Shown here: piece by piece, positions 5,008 to 53,131 of the stretch
How the letters are laid out: each line of letters begins with the position of its first letter
Position numbering within the stretch: the first letter of the stretch is position 1
NCBI GenBank assembly: GCA_021780105.1
Contig: JAJXZJ010000021.1
Coordinates: 1-64,000, forward strand
Reading direction: 5' to 3'
Length of the DNA stretch: 64,000 bases
From: a bacterium
GTDB lineage: Bacteria; Verrucomicrobiota; Verrucomicrobiia; Limisphaerales; J093
Program-made: the position numbers and the translations under genes
The notes under the pieces: model-generated
What the model saw: only the letters and a program-made list of their open reading frames with translations
What the model was told of the DNA's origin: nothing
Databases searched by the model: none

Positions 5008-5039
5008 TAAAACAAAAACGCCGCCCTTGCGGGCGGCGT
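5008..5039 (-). terminator. Rho-independent terminator after the PEP-CTERM gene
   Basis: Perfect 9-bp stem ACGCCGCCC-GCAA-GGGCGGCGT followed by TTTTGTTTT on the minus strand. Confidence 0.85.
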
Positions 5040-5058
5040 CATGAGAACAACAATTTAA

Positions 5059-5625: not shown

Positions 5626-5667
5626 GTTATTATTACAAGTTATTGGTTATGGTTTTCTTCGAAAATA

Positions 5668-6912: not shown

Positions 6913-7701
6913 GTGGCCAAGGTCGCGGTTGTGAACGAAGCCAAGATCACGGCGGACTTGATTCAATCTTGGAAAGGCCGGCGACGTATCGGCGCCCTCA
7001 CCGCTTACGATTACCCGATGGCGCGGCTGTTGGATGAGGCCGGCGTCCCGTTGCTGCTCGTCGGTGATTCACTCGGCATGGTCGTGTTGGGATACTCCGA
7101 CACTACGCTAGTGACTTTAACAGAAATGGAGCACCACGTCCGCGCCACCGCCCGTGCCAAGCCTCGCGCCCTGCTGGCCGCCGACATGCCGATCAACACC
7201 TACCGCACCCCGGACGAAGCCGTCGCGTCCGCGCGCCGGCTCGCCGCCGCCGGTGCCGAAGCGGTGAAGGCCGAAGGCGGGCGGAGTATCGGCGAGCAGG
7301 TCCGCGCGATTCGCGCCGCCGGCATTCCGTTCTGCGGCCATCTGGGCATGTTGCCGCAGCACGTCCGCGAGGAAGGCGGTTATCACATCAAGGGCCGGGC
7401 TGAGGCGGAACGGCAGGCGTTGCTGGCGGACGCCGAGTTCCTTGCCGCGGCCGGCGCGTTTGCCGTCGTGCTGGAGTTGGTCACGCCCGCCGTCGCCCGC
7501 GAAATCACCCAGCGCATTGCCATTCCGACAATCGGCATCGGTTCCGGGCCGGACTGCGACGGGCAAATCCTGGTGACAAACGACCTGGTGGGCACATTCC
7601 CGTGGTTCACGCCGCGGTTCGTCACGCCGCGGCTCAACGCCTTCGAGCAAATGCGCCGCGCCGTGGAAGACTGGCGTCAGGCGCTCGAATCCAACACCTG
7701 A
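6913..7701 (+). CDS. panB: 3-methyl-2-oxobutanoate hydroxymethyltransferase
   Basis: ALTAYDYPMARLLDEAGVPLLLVGDSLGMVVLGY, KAEGG, IGIGSGPDCDGQILV; GTG start. Confidence 0.95.
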   Translation: MAKVAVVNEAKITADLIQSWKGRRRIGALTAYDYPMARLLDEAGVPLLLVGDSLGMVVLGYSDTTLVTLTEMEHHVRATARAKPRALLAADMPINTYRTPDEAVASARRLAAAGAEAVKAEGGRSIGEQVRAIRAAGIPFCGHLGMLPQHVREEGGYHIKGRAEAERQALLADAEFLAAAGAFAVVLELVTPAVAREITQRIAIPTIGIGSGPDCDGQILVTNDLVGTFPWFTPRFVTPRLNAFEQMRRAVEDWRQALESNT

Positions 7702-7725
7702 AATCCGGGCGGCCGTGGCAACGGA

Positions 7726-8610
7726 TCAAACCGTCGAGCCGCTCCAGTTAAGCTTCTGCCGCAGCGTGTCGAAGAACGACGCCCCTGGCAGCCGCACCAG
7801 CCGGGCGACGTGCTGGCTGCGCTGGCACCGCATCGTGTCGCCCACCTGTAGCCGCGTCCGCATCTGGCCGTCCGCCGCGAGAAACGTCTCCACCCGCTGG
7901 CTGAGCAGCCGGACTTCGATGACCGAACCGAGACTGACGATCACCGAGCGGTTGGACAGCGTGTGCGGGCAGATCGGCGTCAGCGCGAATACTTCGGCCT
8001 GCGGGTCAACCACGGCGCCGCCGGCTGCCAGCGAATACGCCGTCGAGCCGGTGGGCGAACTGATGATCAGCCCGTCGCCGCGGTAGCTGGTCAGCAACTC
8101 GCCGTCCACTTTCACTTCCAACTCGATCAACCGGGGCACGGCGCCGCGGCTGATGACGAAATCGTTCAGCGCCAGTTCGGCGGCGCCGGTCGCGTCGCCG
8201 AACTGGGCGGCTTCGATCAACGAGCGCGCTTCCACGGTGCATTGGCCGGTCCAAAGCTGCTCCAGCGCGGCCTTCAACCGGCCGACCGCGCAGGTGGTGA
8301 GAAAACCCAGCGTGCCGAGGTTGACGCCGAAAATTGGCGTCCGGCTGCCGGCGGAATCGCGCGCCACGCGGAGCATCGTGCCATCGCCGCCGAGCACGAG
8401 CAGCAGGTCGCATTGCCGGGCGAGCGTGGGGATGTCCGGCGCGGCGGTCAGATTCAAGCCGGCGAATTCGGCCGTGGCCTGTTCGGCCAGCGCTTCACGG
8501 CCGGCGGCATGAATCAGGCGCACCGCGCGCCGGATCACGGCCCGGGTGGCTGGTTTGTCCGGGTTGGCGACGACGCCCACCCGCCGGAGGTTGTCAGGTA
8601 ACTTTTTCAA
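7726..8610 (-). CDS. nadK: NAD kinase
   Basis: LLLVLGGDGTMLRVAR, GVNLGTLGFLT, GDGLIISSPTGSTAYSLAAGG. Confidence 0.95.
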   Translation of the reverse strand: MKKLPDNLRRVGVVANPDKPATRAVIRRAVRLIHAAGREALAEQATAEFAGLNLTAAPDIPTLARQCDLLLVLGGDGTMLRVARDSAGSRTPIFGVNLGTLGFLTTCAVGRLKAALEQLWTGQCTVEARSLIEAAQFGDATGAAELALNDFVISRGAVPRLIELEVKVDGELLTSYRGDGLIISSPTGSTAYSLAAGGAVVDPQAEVFALTPICPHTLSNRSVIVSLGSVIEVRLLSQRVETFLAADGQMRTRLQVGDTMRCQRSQHVARLVRLPGASFFDTLRQKLNWSGSTV

Positions 8611-9346
8611 TCAACGCCAGGAATTCCTTGTTGCCCGCCGGACCAAGAATGGGCGATTCCGTCACGCCGCGCCAGACCAGTCCGGGCAACGTGGCGACAA
8701 ACGCTTGCAGTTCCGCCAGCACCCGCGCGTGAACGGCCGGATCGGTAATGACGCCGGCACCCTTGTCGGCCTCGGCTTTGCCGGCCTCGAACTGCGGTTT
8801 GACCAGCGCGACGAGCTTACCGGAATCCCGCAGCAAGGCAACCGCCGCCGGCAGAATGAGGCGCAGCGAAATGAACGAGCAATCCACCACCACATAATCC
8901 GCCGACGCGAACGTCGGCGGCATCCGTTCCGGCGCGAGGTGCCGCGCGTTGGTGCGTTCCATCACCACGACCCGCGCGTCCTGCCGCAGTTTCCACGCCA
9001 GTTGCCCCTGCCCCACGTCCACGGCAAACACCCGCGCCGCGCCGTGTTGCAGCAGGCAGTCCGTGAACCCGCCGGTGGAGGCGCCCAGGTCCACGGCCGT
9101 GCCGCCGGTCACGTCCAGCACGAAATGCCGCAGCGCGTGTTCGAGCTTGTGGCCGCCGCGGCTGACGTAGCGTTCCGGCGCGCGCAATTCGACCGCGTCC
9201 GCCGGCCGCACGGTCTGGCTGGCTTTGGCGGCGAGCTGGCCGTTCACGCGCACTTCGCCGGCCAGGACAGCGCGCCGGGCCTTTTCGCGGCTCGGGCAGA
9301 GGCCGCGTTCGACGAGCGCCTGGTCGAGCCGGCGGCGGTCATTCAT
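8594..9346 (-). CDS. tlyA: TlyA-family rRNA methyltransferase/hemolysin-like
   Basis: S4-like LDQALVERGLCPSREKARRAVLAGEVRVNG, YVSRGGHKLEHAL, DLGASTGGFTDCLLQHGA; 17-bp overlap with nadK. Confidence 0.92.
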   Translation of the reverse strand: MNDRRRLDQALVERGLCPSREKARRAVLAGEVRVNGQLAAKASQTVRPADAVELRAPERYVSRGGHKLEHALRHFVLDVTGGTAVDLGASTGGFTDCLLQHGAARVFAVDVGQGQLAWKLRQDARVVVMERTNARHLAPERMPPTFASADYVVVDCSFISLRLILPAAVALLRDSGKLVALVKPQFEAGKAEADKGAGVITDPAVHARVLAELQAFVATLPGLVWRGVTESPILGPAGNKEFLALIEKVT

Positions 9347-9481
9347 GGCGGTTCGGCACGCCGGGCATCAAGCCAACCGGACGCGGATGGGTCAAGCCGA
9401 TTGCGGTGGCGACTCCGCGCTTTGCAACGCGGCGGCCACGCGTTAGGCTGGCCGGATTGTCGCAAGCGACGATTCGACGGC

Positions 9482-12397
<2,916 letters not shown>

Positions 12398-12405
12398 AAC
12401 CGGCC

Positions 12406-15183
12406 ATGAACCCGTCCAAACACCGCATGGTTCAGGTTTCTGCGCAACGTGTCTGGTGGCTGGTCCTCGTCGCGCTCAGCGCGCTCGCCGGCGGTTTGCG
12501 CGCCGCCGACGGCGTGGAGACCCGCGCCGCGGACGCCGTGGTTAAAATGTTTCAGGACGGCCTCTATGACACCGTTGAACGCAACAGCGCCGACTTCCTG
12601 GGCAAATACCCAAACTCCGAGCGCGCCGCCGAGGTCGTGCTCGTCCAGGCCCAGGCGCGCATCAAATTGAAGCACTACTACGACGCCATCAGCCTGCTCA
12701 CCGAAAAGGCCGGCCTGGCGGGCAAGCTCGCCGCCGAGTTCGCGTTCTGGCAGGCCACGGCGCGACTGGAGAAAGGCGACCTTGCCGGCGCCGCGGATGG
12801 TTTTGCCACGGTGGCCACGCGGTTTCCGGATTCCGCGCGCCGGCTGGAGGCGATTTACGACGACGCCTACGCACGGTCGCAAGCCGGCGAGACGGCGCGC
12901 GCCGTGGCGCTGCTGCGCGACCCGGCCGGCGTCTTCCAGCCGGCCGCCCGCGCCAAACCGGACGACCCGTGGGCGATCCGCGGCTGGCTGTTGCTGGGCG
13001 AACTGCTGCTCACGGCCCACGATCCCGCCGGCGCGGCAGAGGCGTTGAAGGCGCTGGAGGGCCGGCCGCTGCCGCCGGAGCTGACGTGGCGACGGGAATT
13101 TCTGCTGGCCCGCGCGCGGCTCGCCGCGGGGCAGTTGCCGGCGGCGTTGAGCAACGCCACCAACCTCTGGACCAGCGCCACCAACGCGGTGCCGCGGGAT
13201 TTGCAGGCCGAGGCCGTGAGGTTGAACGCCGAGATTCTCCAGCGCCTTGGCCAGACCGAAGCCGCCCTGAACTTCTACGAACGGAACCTGGCCGCCGACG
13301 TGCCGCCGGCCCAGCGCCGGCTGGCGCTGCAAAACATCGTTGAACTTTGTCTGCGCGACAACCATCCGGACGAGGCCGCCAGGCGCCTCGAAACCTTCGT
13401 GGCCGCGCACCCGCAGGACGACCTGCTGGACCAGGCGCACCTGGCGCTGGGCGAGTTGCGGCTTCGCCGGTATTTCGCCGGCAAGGCCGCCACCCGCACG
13501 CCGGAGGAACTGGCCGCGAGCAGCAATTTGCTGGCGCAAGCCCGCGCGGATTTCGACCTGGTGACGACGAATTACCCGCAAAGCCGGCTTGTCGGCAACG
13601 CCCAGCTCGACCGCGGCTGGTGTCTCGTGGAGGAGGGTGCCAGCCACCTGGCCGCGGGCACGGCCGCGTTCAAGGCGGCGGCGGACCACCTGCCGCGCGG
13701 CGCCGACCAGGCCGTCGCACGATTCAAGCTGGCCGATTGCCAGTATCTGGCGCGGGACTTTCCGGCCGCGATCTCCAACTACTGGGTCGTGGCCACGAAC
13801 TATGTCGGCACGCCGGGGCTGACGAATGCGTTGTTTACCCAGGCACTTTACCAGATCGTGCGAGCCGGCAACGACGGGCAGGACTTCGTCGCCTCCGCTG
13901 CGGCGATGGCCGAGTTGCTGAAGGTGGATCCGGGCGGCGAACTGGCCGACCGTTCCGCCCTGCTCTACGGCCAGGCGTTGAGCCGCCAGGGCCGGCCGGA
14001 CGTGGCGCGGGCGGTGTATGAGGATTTTGTCAAACGCGCGACGAACTCGGTGCTGCTGCCGGAGGTGAAGCTGGCAATCGCCCACACCTACCAAAAAGAA
14101 CAGGCCTGGACGGCGGCGCGCGGAGCCTACGAGGGCTGGCTCCATGAATACGGCGCGCAGACGAATTTGCCCCCGGCCTTGCAGGCACAGGCGGTCTTTG
14201 AACTGGCCCAGCTCACCTATCAAATCACGCCGGACACGAAAGCCCTGCAGATGCTCACCAACTTCGTGGCGCGGTTCCCCGACGACGCCAATGCCCCGCT
14301 CGCGCAATACCTCGCCGCCATGTATTTCTACAACCAGGGCGACTACGCGAACGCCGAGCTGCTGTTTCAGAACAAGATTTTCACCCAGCCCGCCGCGCAG
14401 GCCGACGCCCTGGCCTTCCAGGCGCGGCGCATGGCCGGCATCGCCGCCTTTGCGCGGCAGAGCTACGACAGCGCCCGCAACCATTTCGACTGGCTCATCA
14501 CCAACGGCCCGCTCTACGTCGCCACCTCGCCGATCCCGGTGCCGATCGTCGCCGAGGCGTATTTGTTCCGCGGCGACATTTTCCTGCTGGAAGACCCCGG
14601 CGGCGCCACGAACAAGCTGGACCGCTACGGCGACGCGATCACCGCGTTTCTGAAGGTCGTCACGCCGCCGTTCCCGACCAACGAGTTCGCCGCCCGCGCC
14701 TGGGGCCGCATCGGCGACTGCCGGCTCACGCTCGCCACCGCCACGCAGGACACCAACCGCTTCGCCGCCGCCGCCGAGGCGTATCAAAACGCCATGAACG
14801 CCGCCCGCGACGTGGCCGTGCGCAGCATGGCGGAGGTCGGCCTGGGCGTGGTGCTCGAAAAGGAGGCGCCGCTGCTGCCCGCGGCGCAACAGGCGGCGCT
14901 CTTCGCCAGCGCGCTCGATCACTACCTGAACGTCGTCTATGGCAAAAACCTCCACGACGGCGAGCAGCCCGATCCCTGGTGGGTCAAGCGCGCCGGCCTG
15001 GCCGCGGCGGATCTGGCCGCGGCGCAGAAGAAATGGGACGTCGCCATCGGCTTGTGCCGGCGATTGTTGACCGAGCTGCCCCCGCTCCGGATGCGGCTGG
15101 AGAAGCGCATTACGGACCTGGAAACGCTTGCCGCCGCCGGCACGAACGCGCTGCCACCGGCACCCGCCCCGCCGGCCAAGTGA
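12406..15183 (+). CDS. Exported tetratricopeptide-repeat protein
   Basis: Hydrophobic leader WWLVLVALSALAGGLRAADG, then many TPR-like helical repeats. Confidence 0.8.
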   Translation: MNPSKHRMVQVSAQRVWWLVLVALSALAGGLRAADGVETRAADAVVKMFQDGLYDTVERNSADFLGKYPNSERAAEVVLVQAQARIKLKHYYDAISLLTEKAGLAGKLAAEFAFWQATARLEKGDLAGAADGFATVATRFPDSARRLEAIYDDAYARSQAGETARAVALLRDPAGVFQPAARAKPDDPWAIRGWLLLGELLLTAHDPAGAAEALKALEGRPLPPELTWRREFLLARARLAAGQLPAALSNATNLWTSATNAVPRDLQAEAVRLNAEILQRLGQTEAALNFYERNLAADVPPAQRRLALQNIVELCLRDNHPDEAARRLETFVAAHPQDDLLDQAHLALGELRLRRYFAGKAATRTPEELAASSNLLAQARADFDLVTTNYPQSRLVGNAQLDRGWCLVEEGASHLAAGTAAFKAAADHLPRGADQAVARFKLADCQYLARDFPAAISNYWVVATNYVGTPGLTNALFTQALYQIVRAGNDGQDFVASAAAMAELLKVDPGGELADRSALLYGQALSRQGRPDVARAVYEDFVKRATNSVLLPEVKLAIAHTYQKEQAWTAARGAYEGWLHEYGAQTNLPPALQAQAVFELAQLTYQITPDTKALQMLTNFVARFPDDANAPLAQYLAAMYFYNQGDYANAELLFQNKIFTQPAAQADALAFQARRMAGIAAFARQSYDSARNHFDWLITNGPLYVATSPIPVPIVAEAYLFRGDIFLLEDPGGATNKLDRYGDAITAFLKVVTPPFPTNEFAARAWGRIGDCRLTLATATQDTNRFAAAAEAYQNAMNAARDVAVRSMAEVGLGVVLEKEAPLLPAAQQAALFASALDHYLNVVYGKNLHDGEQPDPWWVKRAGLAAADLAAAQKKWDVAIGLCRRLLTELPPLRMRLEKRITDLETLAAAGTNALPPAPAPPAK

Positions 15184-15257
15184 AGGAGGCTTTCCCCGGC
15201 GGCGGCCTGGCGGAACGCGGCGTTCCCCGGCGACAAGAAGTTCACATCACCAAGTTT

Positions 15258-16055
15258 ATGGCACAGGACCACACGTTGATGGCATCGCGGTTTGAGTTGA
15301 AATACCTCATCCCGAATTCGCTCGCCCTCCGCATCCGCGATTTTGTCCGCCAGTATCTCGATCTGGACGAATACGGCGTGGGCCTGCCGAACGATTCCTA
15401 CCCCGTCCACAGCCTCTATCTGGATTCGGACGACTGGCAGCTTTTCTGGCGGACGTTCAACGGCGACAAGAACCGCTACAAACTCCGCATCCGCTACTAC
15501 AACGAAAACGAGAAGACGCCGGTTTTCTGGGAAATCAAACGCCGCATGAAGGACGTGATCATCAAGCAACGCTGCGGCATCCGCCGGTCCAGCGCCGCCC
15601 AGGTGCTGAACGGCCAGTTGCCCCGCCGGGCGGAAATGGCCGTGCCGGACGATCCCACCGAACTGAAGGCCATTCAGGACTTCCTCCAGCTCCAGTTCGC
15701 CGTCGGCGCCGTCGGCAAGCTGCACGTGGCCTACGAGCGCGAGGCGTATGTGAACGACTTCAACAACGAGGTGCGCGTCACGTTTGACCGCCACGTCCGC
15801 GCCGTGACGCGGTTCGACCAGGCGCTCATCACGCGCATGGAGAAACCCTTTGTCTGCACGCCGCCGGGCAACGCGTCGAACGACCTGGTGATCCTCGAAT
15901 TGAAGTTCTCGGACCGGTTCCCCGACTGGTATCGGGACCTGGTGCAAACCTTCAACCTGCGGCAAAGCGGCGCCGCCAAATACCAGGAAGGCTCGCTGCT
16001 CTACGCCGGCCGCGACCTCGCGGCGGCGGATGTGATCCGCTATCTCACGTTCTGA
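15258..16055 (+). CDS. VTC-domain (polyphosphate-polymerase-like) protein
   Basis: SRFELKYLIPNSLALRIRDFV, SLYLDSDDWQLFW, KLRIRYYNENEKTPVFWEIKRRMKDVIIKQR. Confidence 0.82.
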   Translation: MAQDHTLMASRFELKYLIPNSLALRIRDFVRQYLDLDEYGVGLPNDSYPVHSLYLDSDDWQLFWRTFNGDKNRYKLRIRYYNENEKTPVFWEIKRRMKDVIIKQRCGIRRSSAAQVLNGQLPRRAEMAVPDDPTELKAIQDFLQLQFAVGAVGKLHVAYEREAYVNDFNNEVRVTFDRHVRAVTRFDQALITRMEKPFVCTPPGNASNDLVILELKFSDRFPDWYRDLVQTFNLRQSGAAKYQEGSLLYAGRDLAAADVIRYLTF

Positions 16056-16213
16056 AACGCCGTTGCTTCGCGGCGGGATTCGCGTAAGCTGCGCCTGTCA
16101 GCCAACTGAAAACGCGCGGATAGCGCGGCGTCCGGCAACCAGCATGGCTCATCGGCGCCGGGCGGACCGGCGGGAGCGCGACGGTTGGCTGCGGTCAGCC
16201 AACGCCGTTGCCT

Positions 16214-17161
16214 ATGAAATCCAAAGCTGCCAACCACCAGAGGAGCGACGCCCCCGCCAAGCCGTCCAAGACCGCGCCGCCGGGCAAAATTCATCCGGTC
16301 GTGATCTACCCCTTCCGCCAGCCGGCCGACTACTCCGACCTGGAGGCGCTTTACAAACTCGTCGCCCGGCTCGACGAGGAGCCGTCCAAGTATGCCCGGC
16401 CGATCACGGTGATGGATCGCAAGACGCACCTGGCGATGGAGGCGAGCGCGCCGTTTCTGGACTTTCGCAAGCGCACCGTGGCGCGGTGCTCGGACGTGCT
16501 CGACGCCTGGTGCGTGGACACCTGCCAGATGTGGTATTCCGGCCTCGGCGCCGCCGTGGAACGCGGCCAGCCGGAGGACGTTTACTGGCTCATTCCCGGC
16601 GATTTCAACTACGGCGCCGGCGTCGGACAGGAAGTGCTCGGCCGGCTGCACGATCTGCCGGAGGTTGCGCTTGAGCTGCAGCAGGACGTCTGCATCGGCG
16701 AAATTGCCACCGACCACAGCCACTCGAAGCAGCTCATTGACACCTACGGCACCTTCGCCCTGCTCTACAACTGGTTTCCCGCGGAAGCCCGCGAGTTGCG
16801 ACGGCTGACCGAGCGTCCCCGCTCCGAATTCTTCGCCGTCCGGCACGGTTTTTTGACCGAACTGCTGCGGCAACGCTGGTTCGCCTACGAGCAGACCGTG
16901 GTGATGCTCTTGAACGCCGTGTTCAGCGGCCGGCGGATCAGCCGGTTTTTCGTCGGCAGCATTTCCGATCTGCCCGAAGGCCGCGATTCGCTGGCCTCGG
17001 CCGTCCAGCAGGTCGAGCGCACCGAGCGCGTCGTGAAAACGCTCTGGCTGGAGCGCAACCAGTCGAAGCCCGGCTGGGCCGATCAATTCGCCAGACTGGC
17101 CGGCCGCTCCGATGAAATCCGCCGGACGGCCATGAGCGTTCTCGCCAGCGCGCTGGGCTGA
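16214..17161 (+). CDS. Conserved hypothetical protein, possibly nucleotide-sugar-related
   Basis: Single 948-bp frame MKSKAANHQ...; VYWLIPGDFNYGAGVGQEVLGRL is weakly glycosyltransferase-like. Confidence 0.6.
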   Translation: MKSKAANHQRSDAPAKPSKTAPPGKIHPVVIYPFRQPADYSDLEALYKLVARLDEEPSKYARPITVMDRKTHLAMEASAPFLDFRKRTVARCSDVLDAWCVDTCQMWYSGLGAAVERGQPEDVYWLIPGDFNYGAGVGQEVLGRLHDLPEVALELQQDVCIGEIATDHSHSKQLIDTYGTFALLYNWFPAEARELRRLTERPRSEFFAVRHGFLTELLRQRWFAYEQTVVMLLNAVFSGRRISRFFVGSISDLPEGRDSLASAVQQVERTERVVKTLWLERNQSKPGWADQFARLAGRSDEIRRTAMSVLASALG

Positions 17162-17179
17162 GCCGCGCCGCGCCGGGTC

Positions 17180-18406
17180 TCACTTCGGCCCGCGGTTCAA
17201 CCACACGTCCACCCGCGGCGTGTCCCAGTTGTAGGGCTTCTCCAGGATGTCGAGCGTGCCGTTGCCGTCGAGGTCCGCCACCTGCCCTTCGTGCCAGCCC
17301 TGACCAACGACGAGTTCAGTCTTCGTGAAATGCCCCTGGCCGTCGCCGTAAAAAATCCACGCCACGGCCTTCGGGTTGTCCGGCTCCTTTTTGCTTTCGG
17401 TCCATTTCCCCATCTCGGCGCAGAAAATGTCCAGGCGGCCGTCGCCGTTGATGTCGGCGACCTGCAGCGTGTGGCCGTGGATCACGTCGCGGGCGAGCAG
17501 ATTGTGCCCGACCCAGTCGGCGGACTTCGACGGATCGCCCACGCATTCATACCAGCGCAACGGACCAACGCCGTCGCCGGGCGCGATGACCACCTGCGGG
17601 TATTTGCCCGGCTTGAACTTCCCGGCAAAAATCAGGCCGCCGACCTCGGCAATCTTCGTGGGCCGAAATTTCTTGCCGCCGACGTGTTTGAACCAGCAGT
17701 TGCCCGCCAGCAAATCCGGCCGGCCGTCGCCGTCAATGTCCGCCACCGACATGCCCTCGGGATACTTGAACGCGGCGCGGCCTTCCTCGCCCGCGCTGCC
17801 GGAGAAAATCTCGGTCAGCGGCCAGGATTCCGCGTGCCGCGGGTCCGGCGGAATTTCCGCGAGAAAAATCTTCTTCGCGCCCTGGTTCCAGAACGCAAGC
17901 TGCGGCTTGCCCGTGCCGAGAAAATCGCCACACGCCTGGTCGTGGTGCTGCGTCGCGCCGCCTTTCTTGATGACGTGCCGCTTCCACGGCACCTTGGGAT
18001 CGAAATTCGGATACGGATTCTCCCACCACCAGACTTCGTCGCTCTGCCAGTCGCCGCCGAACACGACATCGAGGTCGCCGTCGCCGTCAATGTCGCACAC
18101 CGCGCCGCCGGCCTCGACGGTCAGGAACGCCGGCTCGATCACGTAGCGGTCCCAGCCGTGCGCCGTGCGCCGATACCACACCAGCGCCGGCGCGACGTGC
18201 CGGAAGCTCAGGATGAAATCGTTCACGCCGTCCTTGTCGAAATCAGCCACCACGGCGCCGGTTTGCTCGGTGGACGGGCCGGGCACGGGTAGGTCGCCGT
18301 TCTTGCTGGACAGATGCTGCCAGCGGGGAAGCACCAGGTCGGCGGCGGAAACGACCCCGGCCAAGGCCACCGCCAGGGCCGCGAGGAGGAAAAATCGTAT
18401 TTTCAT
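17180..18406 (-). CDS. Exported FG-GAP/VCBS-repeat protein
   Basis: Signal peptide; repeated DxDGDGxxD motifs (DFDKDGVNDFIL, DIDGDGDLDVVFG, DIDGDGRPDLLAG, DINGDGRLDIFC, DLDGNGTLDIL). Confidence 0.88.
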   Translation of the reverse strand: MKIRFFLLAALAVALAGVVSAADLVLPRWQHLSSKNGDLPVPGPSTEQTGAVVADFDKDGVNDFILSFRHVAPALVWYRRTAHGWDRYVIEPAFLTVEAGGAVCDIDGDGDLDVVFGGDWQSDEVWWWENPYPNFDPKVPWKRHVIKKGGATQHHDQACGDFLGTGKPQLAFWNQGAKKIFLAEIPPDPRHAESWPLTEIFSGSAGEEGRAAFKYPEGMSVADIDGDGRPDLLAGNCWFKHVGGKKFRPTKIAEVGGLIFAGKFKPGKYPQVVIAPGDGVGPLRWYECVGDPSKSADWVGHNLLARDVIHGHTLQVADINGDGRLDIFCAEMGKWTESKKEPDNPKAVAWIFYGDGQGHFTKTELVVGQGWHEGQVADLDGNGTLDILEKPYNWDTPRVDVWLNRGPK

Positions 18407-45771: not shown

Positions 45772-46236
45772 TCAGTAAATCCCCGGCACGAACCGCCGGA
45801 CACGGGCGGCGTAGGCGGCGTAATCGGGGAATCGCTCGCGCAACCAGCGTTCCTCCCGGCGGGCCTTGGCGTCGAGCCACAACGCCAGCAGCAGCGCGGC
45901 CAACCCGGCGGGCCAGCTTGTGCGGACCAGCGCCCAGCCGAGCGCGGCGCTCACCACCGCCGTGTAGAGCGGATGGCGTATCCGGCGGTAAACACCGTGC
46001 CGCACCAGGCGGGTTTGTGACGAGGGGCGGGGAAAGGGCGTGAGATTACGGCCCAACGCCACGGCGCCGGCCACGCCGCAAACCGCGGAAACAACGAGCA
46101 GCAACACGCCCGCGCCCGTGACCACCGGCCGCGCCGTCGCACCGCAAAACCACCAGCCCAGCGCGCCGACCGCCAGCAGCAGCACGCATTGACCGAGCAC
46201 CCACCCGCCGCCGCGCTGGACAAACCGGCCAGACAT
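45772..46236 (-). CDS. Isoprenylcysteine carboxylmethyltransferase-family membrane protein
   Basis: LVRHGVYRRIRHPLYTAVVSAALGWAL...RREERWLRERFPDYAAYAARVRRFVPG. Confidence 0.87.
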   Translation of the reverse strand: MSGRFVQRGGGWVLGQCVLLLAVGALGWWFCGATARPVVTGAGVLLLVVSAVCGVAGAVALGRNLTPFPRPSSQTRLVRHGVYRRIRHPLYTAVVSAALGWALVRTSWPAGLAALLLALWLDAKARREERWLRERFPDYAAYAARVRRFVPGIY

Positions 46237-46242: not shown

Positions 46243-46935
46243 TCAGTGCCGGTGCGGGGCCAGGCGCCGGCCCGCATCGCCGAAATAGCGGGTCAGCCGT
46301 TCGCGCAGTTGCAGCCGGGCGCGCAACAGGCGCACCTTCACGTTGGCCTCGCTCAGACCCAGCGCGTCCGCCGTCTCCTTGACCGACAGCCCTTCCACGT
46401 CGCGGAGCAGAAACACCAGCCGGTGCTTCTCGTCCAGGTCGGCAAGGGCGGCCTCGACCAGTTGCCGGGTTTCGTTTTGCTGGACGAGTTGCTCGGGCGA
46501 CTGCCGCCAGTCCGCGATGTATTCCGGGTGCGGCGTGGCGGCGCCTTCTTCCGCCGGGTGGGTCGTTTCCTCGAGGGACACGGTGTCGAGGCCGCGGCGT
46601 TTGCGGATCACCTTGAGGGCAGCGTGCGTGGCAATGCGCAGCAGCCAGGTGGCAAAACTGGATTCGCCGCGGAAGCCGGACAAATTTTCCAGCGCACTGA
46701 GGAAGGTTTGCTGCGTGACGTCCTCGGCATCCTGTTCCTGGCGCAGAATGCGCAGGGCGAGCGAATAGACCTGCCGCTCGTGGCGGCTGGCGAGTGTTTC
46801 AAACGCCTCCAATTCACCCGCCTGGGCACGGCGCACGAGGTCCGCATCATCCGGCCGATGATCCGCGTCTGGCGTGATGTCCGGTGTCCCGCTTGTCACC
46901 GCGCCACGCTGGCAGCGGGCGTGCCGGCTTGTCAA
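46243..46935 (-). CDS. ECF-type sigma-70 family RNA polymerase sigma factor
   Basis: AFETLASRHERQVYSLALRILRQEQDAEDVTQQTFLSALENL; LPD...HRLVFLLRDVEGLSVKETADALGLSEANVKVRLLRARLQLRERL. Confidence 0.93.
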   Translation of the reverse strand: MTSRHARCQRGAVTSGTPDITPDADHRPDDADLVRRAQAGELEAFETLASRHERQVYSLALRILRQEQDAEDVTQQTFLSALENLSGFRGESSFATWLLRIATHAALKVIRKRRGLDTVSLEETTHPAEEGAATPHPEYIADWRQSPEQLVQQNETRQLVEAALADLDEKHRLVFLLRDVEGLSVKETADALGLSEANVKVRLLRARLQLRERLTRYFGDAGRRLAPHRH

Positions 46936-46962: not shown

Positions 46963-47493
46963 TCAGATGAACAGCGTGGACTTGGACTGGCTGGCGTCGC
47001 CGATGAACGTGGCCACGCCGCCCAGTTCCACGCCGTCGAGCAGTTCTTCCTTTGTGATGCCCATCACGTCCATGGACATGGTGCAGGCCACGAACCGCAC
47101 GCCGCTGGCCTGGGCGGTTTCGATAAGTTGGGGCAGGCTGTAAACCTTCTTGCGGCGCATGACGAATTTCATCATGCGCGTGCCCATGCCGCCCATGTTC
47201 ATCTTGGAGAGCTTCAGGCGGTTCGCGCCCTTGGGCATCATCCAGCCAAACATGGTGGACAGAAAATCCTTGGCCGGGGCGGCGGCGTTTTCCTTGCGGA
47301 GGACGTTCAGCCCCCAGAAGGCGAAAAACATGGTCACCTTGGTGTCCATGGCCAGCGCGCCGTTGGCGATGACGAACGCGGCGAGCGCCTTGTCCAGGTC
47401 GCCGGAAAACACAATGATCGTCATCTGGTCATTGGTTTCGGGAGCTGAAACTTGGACGTCGGGAGCGGGATTGGATGAGTTCATGGTGGACAT
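46963..47493 (-). CDS. DsrE/DsrF-family (DsrE2-like) sulfur-trafficking protein
   Basis: MTIIVFSGDLDKALAAFVIANGALAMDTKVTMFFAFWGLNVLRK...VRFVACTMSMDVMGI. Confidence 0.87.
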   Translation of the reverse strand: MSTMNSSNPAPDVQVSAPETNDQMTIIVFSGDLDKALAAFVIANGALAMDTKVTMFFAFWGLNVLRKENAAAPAKDFLSTMFGWMMPKGANRLKLSKMNMGGMGTRMMKFVMRRKKVYSLPQLIETAQASGVRFVACTMSMDVMGITKEELLDGVELGGVATFIGDASQSKSTLFI

Positions 47494-47525
47494 GAGAGTT
47501 TAAGGAGGATTGCGGTGGTCAAAGT

Positions 47526-48698
47526 TTATGCGTCGGCCGGCTGGGCCTGCGCGACGTTGAGGCCGCTGGCGGTCGCCGCCTGGCGGAAGAAATGCAGCCA
47601 CAGCGCCAGCGGGCGATACAGCGCGTGGGCCAGCTTGGTCAGCGTGACGAGCAGCACCAGCTCCATCGCCATCACGGTGTGGATCAGCAGCACCGCGTCG
47701 TTCACCGTGCCCTGCCAGCGGAACGTCACGGCCAGTTCCAGCCAGAAGCCGGTGTCCGCGAGCACGAACAAAAAGCCCAGCAGCCACCAGTCGGCCAGCA
47801 CGGACTGTTTCAGGTGATTGGCCTTGCCCTGCCCGCGCTGGTAGAGCGACACGCTCACGCCGTAAAGCATCACCAGGCCGGACACCGTGCCGAGCACGCG
47901 CGCCGGCGGGAAGGCCGTCCAGCTCAAAAAGTAGATGAAGAGGAAATCCAGCAGCGTGGCGCCGAACAAACCCAGGAAGCCCCACATGATGCTCGCGTGA
48001 ACCCAGCGCGGCGCCAGATACCACGGCCGCGCGGCTTCCGCCTCGGTGTCGCCGCAATGGGCGTGCCGCCGCATCGTGGCCATTTCGCCGAGCGTTTTTT
48101 GCGCGGCCACCAGCATCGCGCCGGGCGAACGCAACAGCCCGCCGAGGCCGCCCGATCCTGCCGTGTAACGCCGCAGCACGTTTGCCACGCCCGCCAGCAG
48201 GAAGAGGCCGAGCACGCCGGAAATGACCATGCCCACGGTGTGAATCACCTCGTAGGGAATCCACCGGAACAGCCAGTCGCTGAACTCGTGCCGCGGATGC
48301 ACCGTCGTCAGAAACAGGCCCAACACCACCGCCACAAGCAGCGTCAAAAACACCGCCGCCAACGGCCGACGATACATCAGTCCGGCCAGCCCGGAGGGAT
48401 CCGCCGACGCGATGGCGTAGCGCCGCAGCGCAGCCATCGTTTCGCCCGGCCCGGCCTCGCGCGGACAGGTGGCGGAGCACTCGCCACAGTAGTAACAGAG
48501 CCACGGCTCGGACATTTGCACCAGCCGCTCCTTGAGGCCCAACTGGACATAGCGAACCAGCTTGCGCGGAAACACCGAATCGCCTTCCGACAGCGGACAA
48601 ACTGCCGTGCAGTTGCCGCAGTTGAAGCAGGTCAGGACGCCGCTGGCGCCGAACCGGGCCAGGTCTTTTGCCAGATCAGGATTTGCTCTTGAAGCCAT
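47526..48698 (-). CDS. QmoC-like protein: HdrC-type 2x[4Fe-4S] domain fused to membrane cytochrome-b-like domain
   Basis: CFNCGNCTAVCP and CYYCGECSATCP, then polytopic helices with conserved His. Confidence 0.85.
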   Translation of the reverse strand: MASRANPDLAKDLARFGASGVLTCFNCGNCTAVCPLSEGDSVFPRKLVRYVQLGLKERLVQMSEPWLCYYCGECSATCPREAGPGETMAALRRYAIASADPSGLAGLMYRRPLAAVFLTLLVAVVLGLFLTTVHPRHEFSDWLFRWIPYEVIHTVGMVISGVLGLFLLAGVANVLRRYTAGSGGLGGLLRSPGAMLVAAQKTLGEMATMRRHAHCGDTEAEAARPWYLAPRWVHASIMWGFLGLFGATLLDFLFIYFLSWTAFPPARVLGTVSGLVMLYGVSVSLYQRGQGKANHLKQSVLADWWLLGFLFVLADTGFWLELAVTFRWQGTVNDAVLLIHTVMAMELVLLVTLTKLAHALYRPLALWLHFFRQAATASGLNVAQAQPADA

Positions 48699-48752
48699 CG
48701 GATTGGGGGGCCGGCCAACGCGCGCTCGCCACGCGGCGGCGCGGCGGCGCGG

Positions 48753-49049
48753 TCATTGGGGGTTCTTCACCAGTTCGTATTTCACGTAGTCGCCCGCCTG
48801 TGCGACTTCACGGGCCAGACCGTATTTTCTCATGCCGGCGATGTGCCAGAGCACCTGGTCCGCGGGGAGGCCGCTTTTCAACGCCAGCTCCGGGACGGTG
48901 GCGGCGGCGGCCTTCAGCGCGTCGGTCAGTTGCTTGCGTTGCTGGCGGAAAGCCGTGGCGTGCTGTTTGAGCGGCTCGGAAACACCGCCGCGCCGTTCGC
49001 GAAAAAGTTTGAGCGCCGCCTTGTGGGCGTCAGTGAGTTTGCCGGGCAT
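48753..49049 (-). CDS. Small unknown protein, possibly winged-helix
   Basis: 98 aa, within the cluster, overlaps the upstream HdrA-like gene by 20 bp; LALKSGLPADQVLWHIAGMRKYGLAREV is wHTH-like. Confidence 0.7.
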   Translation of the reverse strand: MPGKLTDAHKAALKLFRERRGGVSEPLKQHATAFRQQRKQLTDALKAAAATVPELALKSGLPADQVLWHIAGMRKYGLAREVAQAGDYVKYELVKNPQ

Positions 49050-50925
49050 GTTCCCTTCCTTTCAATTCTACGCCGGGCACGCCGGCCACGAGGCCGTCCA
49101 CCATCGCGTCGAACTGCGACAGCGTCCAGCCCTTCAAATCAATCGCGCGGGTCGGGCAGACCGCCACGCAGGCGCCACAGCCCACGCACAGGCCGGGGTT
49201 GACGCGGGCCTTCTTGACCGCCTGGCCGTTCACCGTGGCCGCCTCGGCCACCAGCGCGCCGGTGTAGGCGCATTCAGGGAAACAGCGTTCGCAGCCGATG
49301 CACTGGTCGGCGTCCACCTCGGCCACGAAGGGGTCCAGTTCCACGGACTCGCGACCGAGCAAGATGGACGCCTTCGACGCGGCGGCGGACGCGGCGGCGA
49401 GCGTTTCCTCGATGTTCATCGGCCCCTGCGCGGTGCCAGCCAGCAACACGCCGTTCACCGAAACCTCCACCGGCCGCAGCTTGGGATGCACTTCCTGGAG
49501 GAAGCGGTCCGCGCCAACCGGCAGCTTCATCAGTTCGATCAGGTCCCGGATGTTGCGCGGCATCATGCCGACGCCGAGCACCAGCAGGTCGAGCGGCACG
49601 TCCACTTCCTCGCCGAACGTGAGCCAGTCCTTCACGCGCACCGTGAGCGACGCGCCATTGGTGCCCGGCCCGACCGCCGGCGGTTCGTCGCCGTGATAGC
49701 GGAGAAACACCACGCCGGCGGTGGAGGCGTTGCGGTAATAATCCTCATGCCCGCGACCGTAAGTGCGGATGTCCTGGTGAAAATCATACACGTTCACCTG
49801 CGGGAACCGGCGCTTCACGTCCAGCGCCTGCTGGAGAATCGCCGTGCAGCAGGTGCGCGAGCAATAATCGTTGACCTTGCCGTCGGCCTGCGGCGCGTGG
49901 ACGCCCTCGATCTGCCGGCTGCCCACGCAGTGCAGGAACCCGACGCTGCGCACCGGGCGGCCGTTCCACTGCAACTCACCATTGCGCCGACCGCGCAGTT
50001 CGCGGATGAACTCCGGCAGCGTGGTCACCTGCGGCCCGCCGTGGCCAAACTCGCCGTCGCGCGGCGCGTAAGGATCGAATCCCGTGGCGATGATGACCGC
50101 GCCGACCGCGGCGCGAACTTCCTCCGCCTTGGCCGGCTTGGGCAGCGGCACGCCGGGGGCCGGACCGGCTTCGGCCTTCGGTTCGACGGCAATGGTGATG
50201 TCAAAATTGCCCAGAAAACCCGACAACGCCGCCAGCCGCGCCTGGGAATAGACGCGCACCAGCGGATGGTTCATGACCTGCGCCGCCAGTTTTTTCACCA
50301 GGTCGCTGGCGTCGGTTTCCGTGGGATAGACTTCGTTCAGCGACGCCACGCGTCCGCCGAGACTGGAGGACGATTCCACGAGAATGACGGGAATACCTTT
50401 GCCGGCCAGTTCGGCCGCAGCCTTCAGCCCGGCAATGCCGCCGCCGAGAACGAGCGCCTGGCGGTTGTTTGAGAGACGGATGCGGTCCAGCGGCTCGGCG
50501 TGACGCAACTTGCCCACCGCCGCCGAAATCATGCGGAGCGCCTTGCTGGTGGCGCCGGCGGGATCGGAATGGTGCGCCCAACTGCCCTGCTCGCGGATGT
50601 TGACGTGCTCGTAAAGATATGGGTTCAACCCGCCGCGGTTGACGGCGGTGCGGAAGGTCAGCTCGTGCAGAAACGGCGAGCACGAAGCCACGACAACGCG
50701 GTTCAGCCGCTCGTTGCGGATGTCCTCGGCGATGAGCGCCTGGCCGGGATCGGAACACATGAACGTGTTGACCTTGGCGGCAACCACGCCGGCGACTCCC
50801 TGCATGGCAGTGGCGACGGCTTCCACGTCCACCACGTCGCTGATGTTGCCGCCGCAGCGGCAGATGTAAACGCCGATGCGCGGTTCCTCGGACGCGGCCT
50901 GCGGTTGGGCGGTTTCCTTGATCAT
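49030..50925 (-). CDS. HdrA-like FAD/Fe-S protein (full length)
   Basis: RIGVYICRCGGNISDVVDV, VVVASCSPFLHELTFR, ALVLGGGIAGLKAAAELAGKG; C-terminal CIGCERCFPEC and CVGCGACVAVCP. Confidence 0.92.
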   Translation of the reverse strand: MIKETAQPQAASEEPRIGVYICRCGGNISDVVDVEAVATAMQGVAGVVAAKVNTFMCSDPGQALIAEDIRNERLNRVVVASCSPFLHELTFRTAVNRGGLNPYLYEHVNIREQGSWAHHSDPAGATSKALRMISAAVGKLRHAEPLDRIRLSNNRQALVLGGGIAGLKAAAELAGKGIPVILVESSSSLGGRVASLNEVYPTETDASDLVKKLAAQVMNHPLVRVYSQARLAALSGFLGNFDITIAVEPKAEAGPAPGVPLPKPAKAEEVRAAVGAVIIATGFDPYAPRDGEFGHGGPQVTTLPEFIRELRGRRNGELQWNGRPVRSVGFLHCVGSRQIEGVHAPQADGKVNDYCSRTCCTAILQQALDVKRRFPQVNVYDFHQDIRTYGRGHEDYYRNASTAGVVFLRYHGDEPPAVGPGTNGASLTVRVKDWLTFGEEVDVPLDLLVLGVGMMPRNIRDLIELMKLPVGADRFLQEVHPKLRPVEVSVNGVLLAGTAQGPMNIEETLAAASAAASKASILLGRESVELDPFVAEVDADQCIGCERCFPECAYTGALVAEAATVNGQAVKKARVNPGLCVGCGACVAVCPTRAIDLKGWTLSQFDAMVDGLVAGVPGVELKGREHARQTH

Positions 50926-50938
50926 GGCGGGAAAAAGT

Positions 50939-52291
50939 TCAGGCGTTGACGGCCAGCGCGGGTTCGACGCGTCGGGTCGCCGGTTGATGCAACGACAGGT
51001 AGCGCGAGGCTTCCATCGCGGCCGCGCCAGCCTCGACAATGGTGTCCACGATGTCCTTCGGGCCGGCAGCCACCCCCGCCACGAACACGCCTTCGCGGCC
51101 GGTCCAGGCGGGCCGCGTCGCATCCGGGCGTTTGACGAAGCCGTCGGTTTCCGCCTCCGCGCCGAGGCGGTCGGGGGTTTCCATTTGGGGCATGATGCCG
51201 TTGGCGAGCACGACCAGGTCGTGGCGGTTTTCCGCCACGCGGCCGCCGTCTTCGAGCGTCTCCACGCGCAGGGTCAGGTCGCCGTCCTCCGCGGGCGAAA
51301 TGCGGGCGACCTTGCCCTTGACGAAGTTGATCCCCATTGCCTTGGCGTTCTGGTAAAACTGCTCGTAGCCTTTGCCGAAGCTGCGAATGTCCATGTAATA
51401 AATCGTCAGGTCGGCCGTCGGCAGCGAGCCGGAGAGCAGCATGGCCTGCTTGATGGAATACATGCAGCAGACGCGCGAGCAGTAAGGCACGCCGATGCTC
51501 TGGTCGCGCGAACCGGCACACAGCACGAACGCGATGCTGCCGGGCACCTTGCCATCCGAAGGCCGGACCACGCGGCCAAACGGGCCGTGCGGTGCCAGCA
51601 GGCGCTCCAGTTGCAGCGGGGACAGCACGTTCTTCGACTGCGCGGCGCCGTATTGCGGCTTGAGCGTGGTCGGTGAATTCAACTTGAAGCCGGTGGCCAG
51701 CACCACCGCGCCGGCTTCGACGGTGAACGTCTCCGCCTGCTGGTCGTATTGGATCGCATCCGTAGGGCAGACCTTGGCACAGGCGCCGCACGCGATGCAG
51801 TAGTCGGGGTTCAGCACGGCGTATTGCGGAATGGCGTTGGTAAACGGCACGGCAATGGCGCGGACGGCGCCCAGGCCCTCCTCGAAGGCGTCGGGATATT
51901 CCACCGTGCATTCGTATTCGCACTGGCGGCAGCCGATGCACAACGTCGTGTCCACGTAAAGCGGCTGGCGCGTGAGCGTGAGCCGGTGGCCGTGGCCCGC
52001 CGGCGCCACGGCGTCCACCGTGGTGTGCGTCAGCAAGGTGATGTTCGGGTGGTGCGCCGCCGCCGACATCTTGGGCGTGGTGATGCAACTGGCGCAGTCG
52101 AGCGTGGGGAACACCTTGCTCAGCGCAATCATCCGACCGCCGATGCTGGCGTTTTTCTCCACGACGAGCACCTGGTAGTTTTGATCGGCCAGATCCAGCG
52201 CCGCCTGCAGGCCGGCGATGCCGCCCCCTACCACCACGGCGTCGTAGCGGGTTTTGCCGGTGGCCAACGATGGAGAAGAGGAAGCGCTCAT
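50939..52291 (-). CDS. HdrA/QmoA-like FAD/Fe-S protein
   Basis: YDAVVVGGGIAGLQAALDLADQNYQVLVVEKNASIGGRM, DCASCITTPKMSAAAHHPNI, CIGCRQCEYECTVEYPD, CIACGACAKVCP. Confidence 0.92.
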   Translation of the reverse strand: MSASSSPSLATGKTRYDAVVVGGGIAGLQAALDLADQNYQVLVVEKNASIGGRMIALSKVFPTLDCASCITTPKMSAAAHHPNITLLTHTTVDAVAPAGHGHRLTLTRQPLYVDTTLCIGCRQCEYECTVEYPDAFEEGLGAVRAIAVPFTNAIPQYAVLNPDYCIACGACAKVCPTDAIQYDQQAETFTVEAGAVVLATGFKLNSPTTLKPQYGAAQSKNVLSPLQLERLLAPHGPFGRVVRPSDGKVPGSIAFVLCAGSRDQSIGVPYCSRVCCMYSIKQAMLLSGSLPTADLTIYYMDIRSFGKGYEQFYQNAKAMGINFVKGKVARISPAEDGDLTLRVETLEDGGRVAENRHDLVVLANGIMPQMETPDRLGAEAETDGFVKRPDATRPAWTGREGVFVAGVAAGPKDIVDTIVEAGAAAMEASRYLSLHQPATRRVEPALAVNA

Positions 52292-52791
52292 GCGAAAACA
52301 GGAACAGGTTCGGGCCGGCGGATCGCAGGCAGATTCAGCCCCGCGCACATGCCGCGCCGGGAGTCCTCCCACAGTTTGGCGGCGGTGTCGCGGTTGACCG
52401 GGCCGATCTTGCGCAGGCGTTGGTCCATCTCGTTGACCTCTTTCAAAAACGCCTTGATGCAGACCGTGCAAATCGCCGTGATCCGCATCCGCTCGATCTC
52501 CAAACCGCCGGTCTTCATCTTCTTCACCAACGCGTCAATCCGCGCGGCCAGCTTCGGATAGGCGTTGTGATAGGGACAATCCGAGCCGCAGGCGGCAATG
52601 ATGATGCCGTCCACGCCACGGGCGTAGCTGCGCAGGTAAAAATCCTCCGGAAACAACACCGGCGAGGGCACACGGAAGACGCTGATATTGGCCGGGTATT
52701 CCAGGTGCGCCTTGCCGACGGCGTCCGCGCCGGGGTAAGCGCAGGCAACCGTGGCCAGCACGAGAATCTTCGGTTCGAAGGACGAAGCCAT
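52288..52791 (-). CDS. MvhD/FlpD-like delta subunit (divergent)
   Basis: KILVLATVACAYPGADAVGKAHLEYPANISVFRVPSPVL...GVDGIIIAACGSDCPYHNAYPKL; ATGA overlap with the HdrA/QmoA-like gene. Confidence 0.83.
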   Translation of the reverse strand: MASSFEPKILVLATVACAYPGADAVGKAHLEYPANISVFRVPSPVLFPEDFYLRSYARGVDGIIIAACGSDCPYHNAYPKLAARIDALVKKMKTGGLEIERMRITAICTVCIKAFLKEVNEMDQRLRKIGPVNRDTAAKLWEDSRRGMCAGLNLPAIRRPEPVPVFA

Positions 52792-52816
52792 AGCCGGGGC
52801 GGACGCGGGTTGCGGG

Positions 52817-53068
52817 TTACTTCTTGCGGCGGACGAAGTGACGGTCGAAACCGTCCGCTTCCACCACTCCAAGATATTCGTGTCCAACTTTTTTTGCCCA
52901 GGCGGGAATGTCGTTGCGGGAACCGGCGTCGTTCGACTGCACTTCCACCACCTGGCCGACCGGCACGACACCAATGGCTTTCTTGGCCTCCAGCAGCGGG
53001 CCGGGGCAGGCCACGCCGCGCGCGTCCACCGTTTTCGCCGCCGTCACACCATTCAATTCGTTGCTCAT
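52817..53068 (-). CDS. tusA: TusA-family sulfur carrier protein
   Basis: KTVDARGVACPGPLLEAKKAIGVVPVGQVVEVQSND, CPxP motif. Confidence 0.88.
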   Translation of the reverse strand: MSNELNGVTAAKTVDARGVACPGPLLEAKKAIGVVPVGQVVEVQSNDAGSRNDIPAWAKKVGHEYLGVVEADGFDRHFVRRKK

Positions 53069-53131
53069 GTTATTCCAATGTTCGCTGTTGCTGACTGTCA
53101 TACGACCCTGTTTCGGGCCGCTGTGGAGATG

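Follow-up and report, generated by a model that had tools for sequence, protein, structure and literature searches.

The 64,000-nucleotide stretch of DNA analysed here (the window) contains a seven-gene cluster, tusA to dsrE2, that lies entirely on the minus strand, each gene being an exact reading frame with an ATG start and a single stop. The first gene, tusA (52817-53101, 94 aa), encodes a sulfur carrier (PF01206, 70 bits), and the second, mvhD/flpD (52288-52791, 167 aa), a [2Fe-2S]-type electron-entry subunit (FlpD, PF02662, 73 bits). Two HdrA paralogues follow, a short qmoA-like one (50939-52291, 450 aa; NF040770, 452 bits over profile positions 138-561) and an hdrA-like one (49030-50925, 631 aa; NF040770, 489 bits in two stretches), with only part of the profile covered in each. 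Next come p98 (48753-49049, 98 aa), a predicted winged-helix protein with no family match, and a qmoC-like gene (47526-48698, 390 aa), whose product joins an HdrC-type 2x[4Fe-4S] domain to a cytochrome-b-like membrane domain. The last gene, dsrE2-like (46963-47493, 176 aa), encodes a sulfurtransferase (DsrE_2, PF13686, 210 bits). Intergenic gaps are at most 54 bp, and mvhD overlaps qmoA by 4 nt and hdrA overlaps p98 by 20 nt, a layout as in a single operon. The first-pass annotation described seven close or overlapping genes with a separate mvhD rather than a QmoB C-terminal domain. Exact frames and profile matches bear this out: all seven genes are intact and nearly touching, the names are correct (TusA, FlpD, two HdrA-type proteins, QmoC-like and DsrE_2 were matched, with p98 family-less), and mvhD is a gene of its own. 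The earlier tusA boundary, 53068, is an in-frame internal ATG; both starts are possible, and no conclusion is affected.

Both sulfur-carrier genes are the only ones of their kind found in the host genome, where PF01206 and DsrE_2 each give a single match. TusA residues C32-P33-G34-P35 form the CPxP sulfane-sulfur motif of the family, and CPGP is >93% conserved among 61 relatives. In the DsrE2-like protein, which has one weak hydrophobic span, C137 is conserved among 31 relatives; its score exceeds the cut-off of PF13686 (210 bits) but not that of NF047629 (90 bits versus 210).

Cysteines are similarly retained in the redox subunits. About 90% of 66 relatives share MvhD residues C77, C113 and C116. 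The QmoA-like protein has an FAD core carrying an inserted two-cluster ferredoxin part together with HdrA-type cysteines, and its conserved positions are C120/123/126/130, C167/170/173/177 and C260/273/277/278, numbered in an alignment frame with 2 extra residues before the ATG. In the HdrA-like protein, an N-terminal HdrA domain precedes an FAD core without the ferredoxin insert and a C-terminal two-cluster ferredoxin domain; here the conserved cysteines are C23/25/58/83 and C334/356/360/361, in a frame with 1 extra residue before the ATG. In a quick tree, canonical QmoA and QmoB (QmoB sequences of 743-780 aa) form their own group (100, starred), and the window flavoproteins fall into two other clades, QmoA-like (99, starred; 24 rows) and HdrA-like (100, starred; 24 rows). 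The HdrA-like protein clusters with methanogen HdrA and Mvh-type HdrA, and a branch that is weak and short (89, length 0.03, midpoint root) is all that connects the QmoA-like clade to canonical Qmo. The same internal split is seen in both clades, suggesting that the two proteins travel together.

The QmoC-like protein keeps both 4Fe-4S motifs and has about six predicted hydrophobic membrane spans; its eight cysteines and three invariant histidines (H234/H340/H358) are also present in canonical QmoC. Its score against NF038018 is 177 bits, under the 300-bit cut-off. Among 21 carrier genomes, the best non-canonical copies likewise score <220 bits, and copies over the cut-off score 386-495 bits. 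Hence, the cluster is not a canonical QmoABC: its QmoC scores below 300 bits, aprA is missing, MvhD is unfused, and the flavoproteins lie outside the QmoA+QmoB group. On this last point, the Qmo-like identity put forward in the first-pass annotation is not supported in the strict sense.

A constant member of the cluster is p98, present in 83 surveyed loci. Its AlphaFold2 model (mean pLDDT 94) shows a long N-terminal helical part preceding a winged helix, and the best Foldseek matches are SmtB/ArsR-type winged helices (E 5.5e-4); we consider it a predicted winged-helix protein. A role as a thiol sensor is unlikely, as the window p98 has no cysteine and none is conserved among relatives. DsrD is likewise a small winged-helix protein. 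However, it is not one of the 25 Pfam matches seen most often for the p98 set, nor does it appear among the 50 Foldseek matches listed, leaving a DsrD origin unsupported. Within the host phylum p98 is patchy, being found at E <1e-20 in 9 of 390 genomes.

How widely is this arrangement shared? The order TusA-MvhD-QmoA-HdrA-p98-QmoC/HdrC is kept in 64 of the 65 relatives with contigs reaching far enough, indicating that the arrangement is more than chance, and a DsrE-family gene lies at one cluster end in 60 of these loci. All but one of the untruncated loci have TusA; in L078, an otherwise similar cluster, it is missing. Carriers span at least 15 phyla and include bacteria (Omnitrophota, Acidobacteria, Verrucomicrobia, Armatimonadetes, Chloroflexi, Planctomycetes, Desulfobacterota, Aminicenantes) and archaea (Archaeoglobales, Thermoproteota, Asgard archaea). 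One caveat here is that the carriers are mostly metagenome bins, in which misbinning and gaps are possible. The first-pass annotation had staked its proposal on a conserved gene order, which is indeed seen across phyla; its view of the composition as unusual is not supported, since the system is widespread and this is its usual form.

What does vary is the electron port. The window form has a quinone port (QmoC-like). Other loci carry a GltD-type NAD(P)H module within QmoA (with a Rex regulator nearby in some), soluble HdrC and HdrB replacing QmoC (an HdrB-type gene is present in L161, L162 and L164), or, in L078, hydrogenase-like subunits. Thus, TusA, MvhD, QmoA, HdrA and p98 are constant, and the port is exchangeable. 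A CoA-disulfide-reductase/rhodanese/TusA/DsrE2 fusion lies near the L161 cluster. Recurrent neighbours comprise regulators (ArsR, sigma-54, Rex, two-component), a FadL-type outer-membrane protein, UbiA and unrelated genes, none of which names a substrate.

We examined the host genome (94% complete) by family searches and in selected stretches. No aprA, sat or dsrAB-type pair was found by the family searches, extending beyond the window the earlier observation that Apr, Sat and Dsr are lacking. A similar statement about HdrB is true of the operon but not of the genome: CCG-domain genes occur only on contigs 28 and 55, and the HdrB on contig 28 is part of a separate Mvh/Hdr/Etf cluster. The reported lack of a lipoate-binding protein also stands, there being none in the cluster. 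The GcvH-like genes of the host, on contigs 33 (beside gcvT, a glycine-cleavage H), 11 (a DGC-GcvH fusion beside dihydrolipoyl dehydrogenase), 13 and 24, are all away from the operon and from any CCG or hdr gene. A UbiE-type methyltransferase is present, consistent with quinone synthesis. The verrucomicrobial host named in the first-pass annotation is a consistent assignment.

On balance, we give roughly even chances to the proposal that the seven genes specify a membrane-bound oxidoreductase, built on HdrA and acting on protein-bound sulfane sulfur, that is coupled in this form to menaquinone and runs somewhat more probably in the reductive direction. Judging by the protein families and conserved cysteines, DsrE and TusA would bring sulfur, bound as a cysteine persulfide, to the paired QmoA-like and HdrA-like flavoproteins and dock there. 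Electrons would pass through the FAD and [4Fe-4S] clusters of this pair, motifs for which are seen. MvhD, by analogy with its place in the hydrogenase-Hdr complex, may be where a soluble electron donor or acceptor plugs in, and the QmoC-like protein could connect its HdrC half, via the cytochrome b half, to the menaquinone pool. p98 might be a winged-helix subunit joining HdrA to HdrC/QmoC, or else a dedicated regulator. The sulfur partner is presumably fixed and the port interchangeable. The most likely net reaction in these mostly anaerobic hosts would be R-S-SH + 2 e- -> R-SH + HS-. As for its parts, the putative persulfide-handling, quinone-linked role put forward by the first-pass annotation is soundly inferred. 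TusA and DsrE could, on the other hand, serve another acceptor. Moreover, the quinone form has neither HdrB nor AprAB and so offers no obvious site for the sulfur chemistry.

We lean slightly towards reduction to sulfide over oxidation, given that the forms linked to H2 or NAD(P)H and the L161 fusion point to sulfur reduction. At standard potentials, sulfur is an energetically unfavourable acceptor for menaquinol, and a simple quinol:sulfur reductase would have to draw on proton-motive force or bifurcation; the HdrA pair might use flavin-based bifurcation to couple the reaction to an exergonic electron flow to menaquinone. The opposite flow, from sulfur to menaquinone, is downhill, which favours an oxidative reading that is possible but clearly less probable: the HdrA pair would oxidise sulfane sulfur delivered by TusA/DsrE, as a lipoate-free cousin of sHdr, with menaquinone (window form) or NAD(P)+ (long QmoA form) as acceptor. 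Some sample titles hint at sulfur-rich sites (SulCav, Zod bins), in keeping with this reading. TusA and DsrE also accompany HdrA-type enzymes in sulfur-oxidising sHdr organisms (PMC6067878, PMC6776052), and thus the direction may be the reverse of the one we favour. However, LbpA and the HdrB1/B2 and HdrC1/C2 set are missing, the association of some forms with hydrogenase, Rex or NAD(P)H hints at an electron sink, and most carriers lack a Dsr or Apr able to handle sulfite. In addition, some carriers, e.g. the Archaeoglobales and Aminicenantes, belong to groups known mainly for an anaerobic life.

It is unlikely that the complex instead keeps TusA/DsrE thiols reduced for sulfur donation (e.g. 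thiolation, cofactor sulfuration), outside energy metabolism. TusA functions in tRNA thiolation in E. coli, and the operon copy is the sole TusA of the host; yet a membrane cytochrome-b subunit with exchangeable quinone, NAD(P)H or hydrogenase ports seems costly for such a purpose, and the patchy spread of p98 argues against housekeeping. Very improbable is an ordinary Qmo feeding APS reductase with TusA/DsrE as incidental neighbours, for although the QmoC-like protein, the two HdrA-type flavoproteins and the HdrA-like, sometimes Apr-free type II Qmo (PMC10504309) fit, the canonical form is already contradicted by the tree, TusA is nearly universal, aprA exceeds its cut-off in only 10 of 43 carrier genomes (33 have none above it) and is absent from the host, and several Apr carriers hold a separate canonical qmoABC beside aprBA.

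The preferred reading, an HdrA-based sulfane-sulfur oxidoreductase, has a broader corollary, whose chances we rate a little below even. The cluster would represent a separate and so far undescribed family of complexes for sulfur respiration. Its core (TusA/DsrE/MvhD/QmoA/HdrA/p98) would be fixed, with p98 as the winged-helix marker subunit, whereas ports for quinone, NAD(P)H, hydrogen or HdrB could be exchanged, and it would serve many uncultured anaerobic bacteria and archaea without Dsr, Apr or Sat. Current annotation scatters the system among hdrA, qmo and hypothetical proteins. If the corollary is true, sulfur-dependent electron transfer would occur in a large share of the anaerobes in which known sulfur genes are missing (about 30 of 43 carriers), apr-independent Qmo-like clusters would gain a candidate function, p98 would offer a simple sequence marker for surveys, and there would be a test case for the plugging of HdrA modules into different electron ports.

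Comparison with known systems shows partial resemblance in each case. The operon resembles type I, Apr-linked QmoABC in bringing together a pair of HdrA-type flavoproteins, an MvhD domain and a protein with HdrC and cytochrome b parts that shares QmoC Cys and His positions, and in linking cytoplasmic redox chemistry to quinone. Unlike QmoABC, its flavoproteins are not orthologous to QmoA/QmoB, MvhD is separate, p98, TusA and DsrE are added, and AprAB is lacking. The MvhADG-HdrABC and HdrL/MvhD complexes (PMC2702500) share the HdrA + MvhD hub; the soluble variant likewise has HdrC and HdrB, and the long QmoA variant, like HdrL, has an NAD(P)H domain of the glutamate-synthase type. The window operon differs in having TusA/DsrE, p98, two distinct HdrA paralogues and a cytochrome b half that replaces HdrB, and none of its seven genes encodes HdrB or the hydrogenase MvhAG. 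As in sHdr (Hyphomicrobium, Thermomicrobium), tusA and dsrE genes adjoin those of HdrA-type proteins, but an sHdr identity was rejected: the cluster lacks the HdrB/HdrC set (hdrC1B1A-hyp-hdrC2B2) and LbpA, and instead has a membrane quinone module and a second flavoprotein. The YTD cluster and type II DsrEFH (PMC12998232, PMC13293266) also employ TusA and DsrE-family sulfur transfer in anaerobes, yet the window has a flavoprotein complex rather than a sulfur importer, with YedE/YeeE encoded neither by the seven genes nor by the next two downstream. In the non-subscription literature searched on TusA/SirA, HdrA, MvhD/FlpD, DsrE and Qmo, no description of the cluster was found. A parallel by description is type II Qmo, found with or without Apr/Dsr, for example in Vulcanisaeta moutnovskia and Ammonifex degensii (Neukirchen et al. 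2023; PMC10504309). In the available part of that report, its flavoproteins, like the window HdrA-like protein, are closer to HdrA than to QmoAB, and an association with TusA, DsrE or p98 is not mentioned. Judged on description rather than sequence, our cluster may be the same as, or overlap with, this uncharacterised type II Qmo.

The operon comprises seven minus-strand genes spanning 46963–53101 of the window, as delimited by a reading-frame check: tusA (52817–53101), mvhD (52288–52791), a qmoA-like gene (50939–52291), an hdrA-like gene (49030–50925), the gene for a 98-aa protein, p98 (48753–49049), a qmoC-like gene (47526–48698) and a dsrE2-like gene (46963–47493). All are intact: each begins with ATG and is free of internal stop codons. 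Neighboring genes are separated by no more than 54 bp, and mvhD/qmoA and hdrA/p98 overlap, bearing out the first-pass annotation's description of close or overlapping genes. G+C content is 65.1%, versus 64.9% for the window. Pfam and NCBIfam recognize TusA, FlpD (MvhD) and DsrE_2, place the QmoA-like and HdrA-like proteins among HdrA-type flavoproteins, match the QmoC-like protein below cut-off, and assign p98 to no family. Coverage of the HdrA profile differs between the two flavoproteins: the short QmoA-like protein has the FAD core and a ferredoxin insert, and in the long HdrA-like protein the FAD core is flanked by the N-terminal domain and a C-terminal ferredoxin domain. Genes for an ECF sigma factor (46243–46935, minus strand, 27 bp downstream of dsrE) and then an isoprenylcysteine-methyltransferase-like protein (45772–46236, minus strand) are co-directional with the operon; this pair was not noticed beside other operon copies.

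A search of genome contigs with the QmoC-like protein yielded 80 loci, and mapping the other operon proteins onto these and onto same-phylum stretches gave 83 loci with p98. Because loci were chosen by QmoC similarity, independent evidence comes from the other genes only. The order TusA, MvhD, QmoA, HdrA, p98, QmoC or HdrC, whose conservation had been proposed as a check, is kept in 64/83 p98 loci (three counted after allowing over-extended frames or an HdrC slightly below the score limit); going by record titles, the carriers belong to at least 15 bacterial and archaeal phyla. Eighteen of the others end at a contig edge, and one (L078) has hydrogenase-like genes in place of TusA. Of the 64, 60 have a DsrE-family gene at one end, and the remaining four stop at a contig end. 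Within the host phylum the distribution is patchy, with a full-length QmoC-like protein in ∼6 and p98 (E <1e-20) in 9 of 390 genomes. Each of the nine p98 genes adjoins a gene for QmoC or HdrC; eight also cluster with TusA, the ninth (in G276) being cut by a contig end. The closest QmoA (77% identity) and QmoC (71%) come from an Acidobacteria and an Omnitrophota bin, respectively, suggesting horizontal transfer.

Alignments of relatives show that TusA keeps C-P-G-P, DsrE keeps C137, the QmoA-like protein keeps eight ferredoxin-type and four HdrA-type cysteines, and the HdrA-like protein keeps its N-terminal and HdrA-type cysteines and most C-terminal ones. The QmoC-like protein, with six hydrophobic spans, keeps eight cluster cysteines and three histidines common to canonical QmoC. 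The operon's TusA and DsrE_2 are the only ones found in the host genome. By sequence, we found no solved QmoABC structure; the nearest are methanogen HdrA, methanogen HdrC and the HdrA-like 6tjr.

For p98, AlphaFold2 on a 67-sequence alignment confidently predicts (pLDDT 94) a fold in which two N-terminal helices precede a helix-turn-helix and a two-stranded wing. Structural matches in Foldseek were ArsR/SmtB-type winged helices with modest E-values (best 5.5e-4, TM about 0.54), and Pfam gave weak HTH-family matches. Thr50, Pro52, Tyr75, Tyr87 and Tyr90 are conserved; the alignment holds no conserved cysteine. We favor a role as a subunit of the putative complex, because in every form of the cluster p98 has hdrA on one side and qmoC/hdrC on the other, with separate ArsR regulators nearby in some; less probably, p98 may be a DNA-binding regulator.

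The electron port is swapped between these forms. Form A, that of the window, combines short QmoA with membrane QmoC. Form B has a ∼900-aa QmoA into which a GltD-type module is inserted (Fer4_20 and Pyr_redox_2 in Pfam), and three Aminicenantes loci carry a Rex-type repressor upstream. In form C (four genomes of the host phylum), HdrA-p98 is followed by a short soluble HdrC, then in 3/4 genomes by an HdrB-type CCG protein; upstream, where the contig extends, lie DsrE-TusA-MvhD-long QmoA. Form D (L078) contains genes resembling MvhG and MvhA, assigned by sequence appearance and size. Since TusA, MvhD, QmoA, HdrA and p98 are unchanged in forms A to C, we infer a constant substrate, carried sulfur, with quinone, NAD(P)H, H2 or an HdrB substrate serving as interchangeable partners. 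An 820-aa CoA-disulfide-reductase-like/rhodanese/TusA/DsrE2 fusion is encoded in L161 (1268–3727), close to one form C cluster. A FadL/TodX-type outer-membrane protein follows dsrE in L045 (11945–13261), its family neighboring seven loci from Armatimonadota and Aminicenantes; it might admit hydrophobic sulfur. In L100, L102, L105, L111 and L114, related QmoA-QmoC-HdrA-MvhD clusters lack both TusA and p98; some are followed by hydrogenase-like genes, and together they form a further Hdr/Qmo-type arrangement.

Gene content and order, cofactor motifs and the swapping of ports are observed; assembly into a complex, persulfide as its substrate, quinone as its partner and the direction of flow are proposed. 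In the reaction we propose, protein persulfide would be reduced to sulfide by an HdrA-based oxidoreductase, a reading to which we give roughly an even chance. The forms linked to hydrogen, NAD(P)H or Rex resemble electron sinks, the L161 fusion points the same way, and Dsr/Apr are absent from most carriers checked (aprA over cut-off in 10/43, DsrAB-type pairs in about 12/43 by reading of matches, both counts being affected by bin gaps). Menaquinone has a more positive potential than sulfur, so flavin-based bifurcation probably has quinone on its exergonic side; otherwise flow would go from sulfur to quinone. An oxidative reading, with electrons leaving the carried sulfur, accommodates that second case; given the sink-like forms, it seems rather doubtful.

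Identity with canonical, Apr-linked Qmo was rejected using a quick maximum-likelihood tree of 67 sequences (short search, midpoint-rooted, between-group branch order not to be over-read). Canonical QmoA and QmoB, drawn from loci linked to aprA or resembling these, form one group (support 100), outside which fall the QmoA-like (24 rows, support 99) and HdrA-like (24 rows, support 100) groups; these share an identical internal split, as expected under joint inheritance. Several Apr-bearing carriers have canonical qmoABC at a different locus, and the Acidobacteria carrier G390 has both systems. The lack of Apr and Sat reported for the window extends to the host genome, where neither aprA nor sat was found and a single ORF has two NIR_SIR domains of assimilatory type; because the genome is 94% complete, these absences are likely rather than proven.

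Identity with the lipoate-linked sHdr pathway was also rejected, since the host's HdrB-type and GcvH-like genes sit away from the operon. No HdrB or lipoate-binding protein gene lies in the operon, in line with the first-pass annotation's statement for the window. CCG-domain (HdrB-type) genes occur on contigs 28 and 55, those at 292–299k of contig 28 belonging to a separate cluster. That cluster (L124, C28:286000–305103, at 6219–18356) reads HdrC-HdrB-EtfB-EtfA-membrane Fe-S/CCG protein-CCG protein-HdrA-MvhD-MvhG-MvhA-maturation protease, joining Mvh/Hdr complex genes to electron-transfer flavoprotein genes in the host itself. GcvH-like genes comprise an H protein linked to gcvT, a DGC-GcvH fusion whose neighbor is dihydrolipoyl dehydrogenase, a contig 13 copy and a borderline contig 24 match, none near any hdr cluster. 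The fusion (288 aa) lies with a 96-aa ferredoxin and the dehydrogenase in an operon (L145, C11:293000–303000, at 3387–6029) that is a putative lipoate-type redox unit.

Our search of open-access papers found neither the linkage of TusA, DsrE and p98 nor the variants of the electron port described. The type II Qmo of Neukirchen et al. (PMC10504309) is closer to HdrA, occurs with or without Apr/Dsr and has an unclear role. By that description it matches the operon in part, and the operon may be, or include, a type II Qmo.
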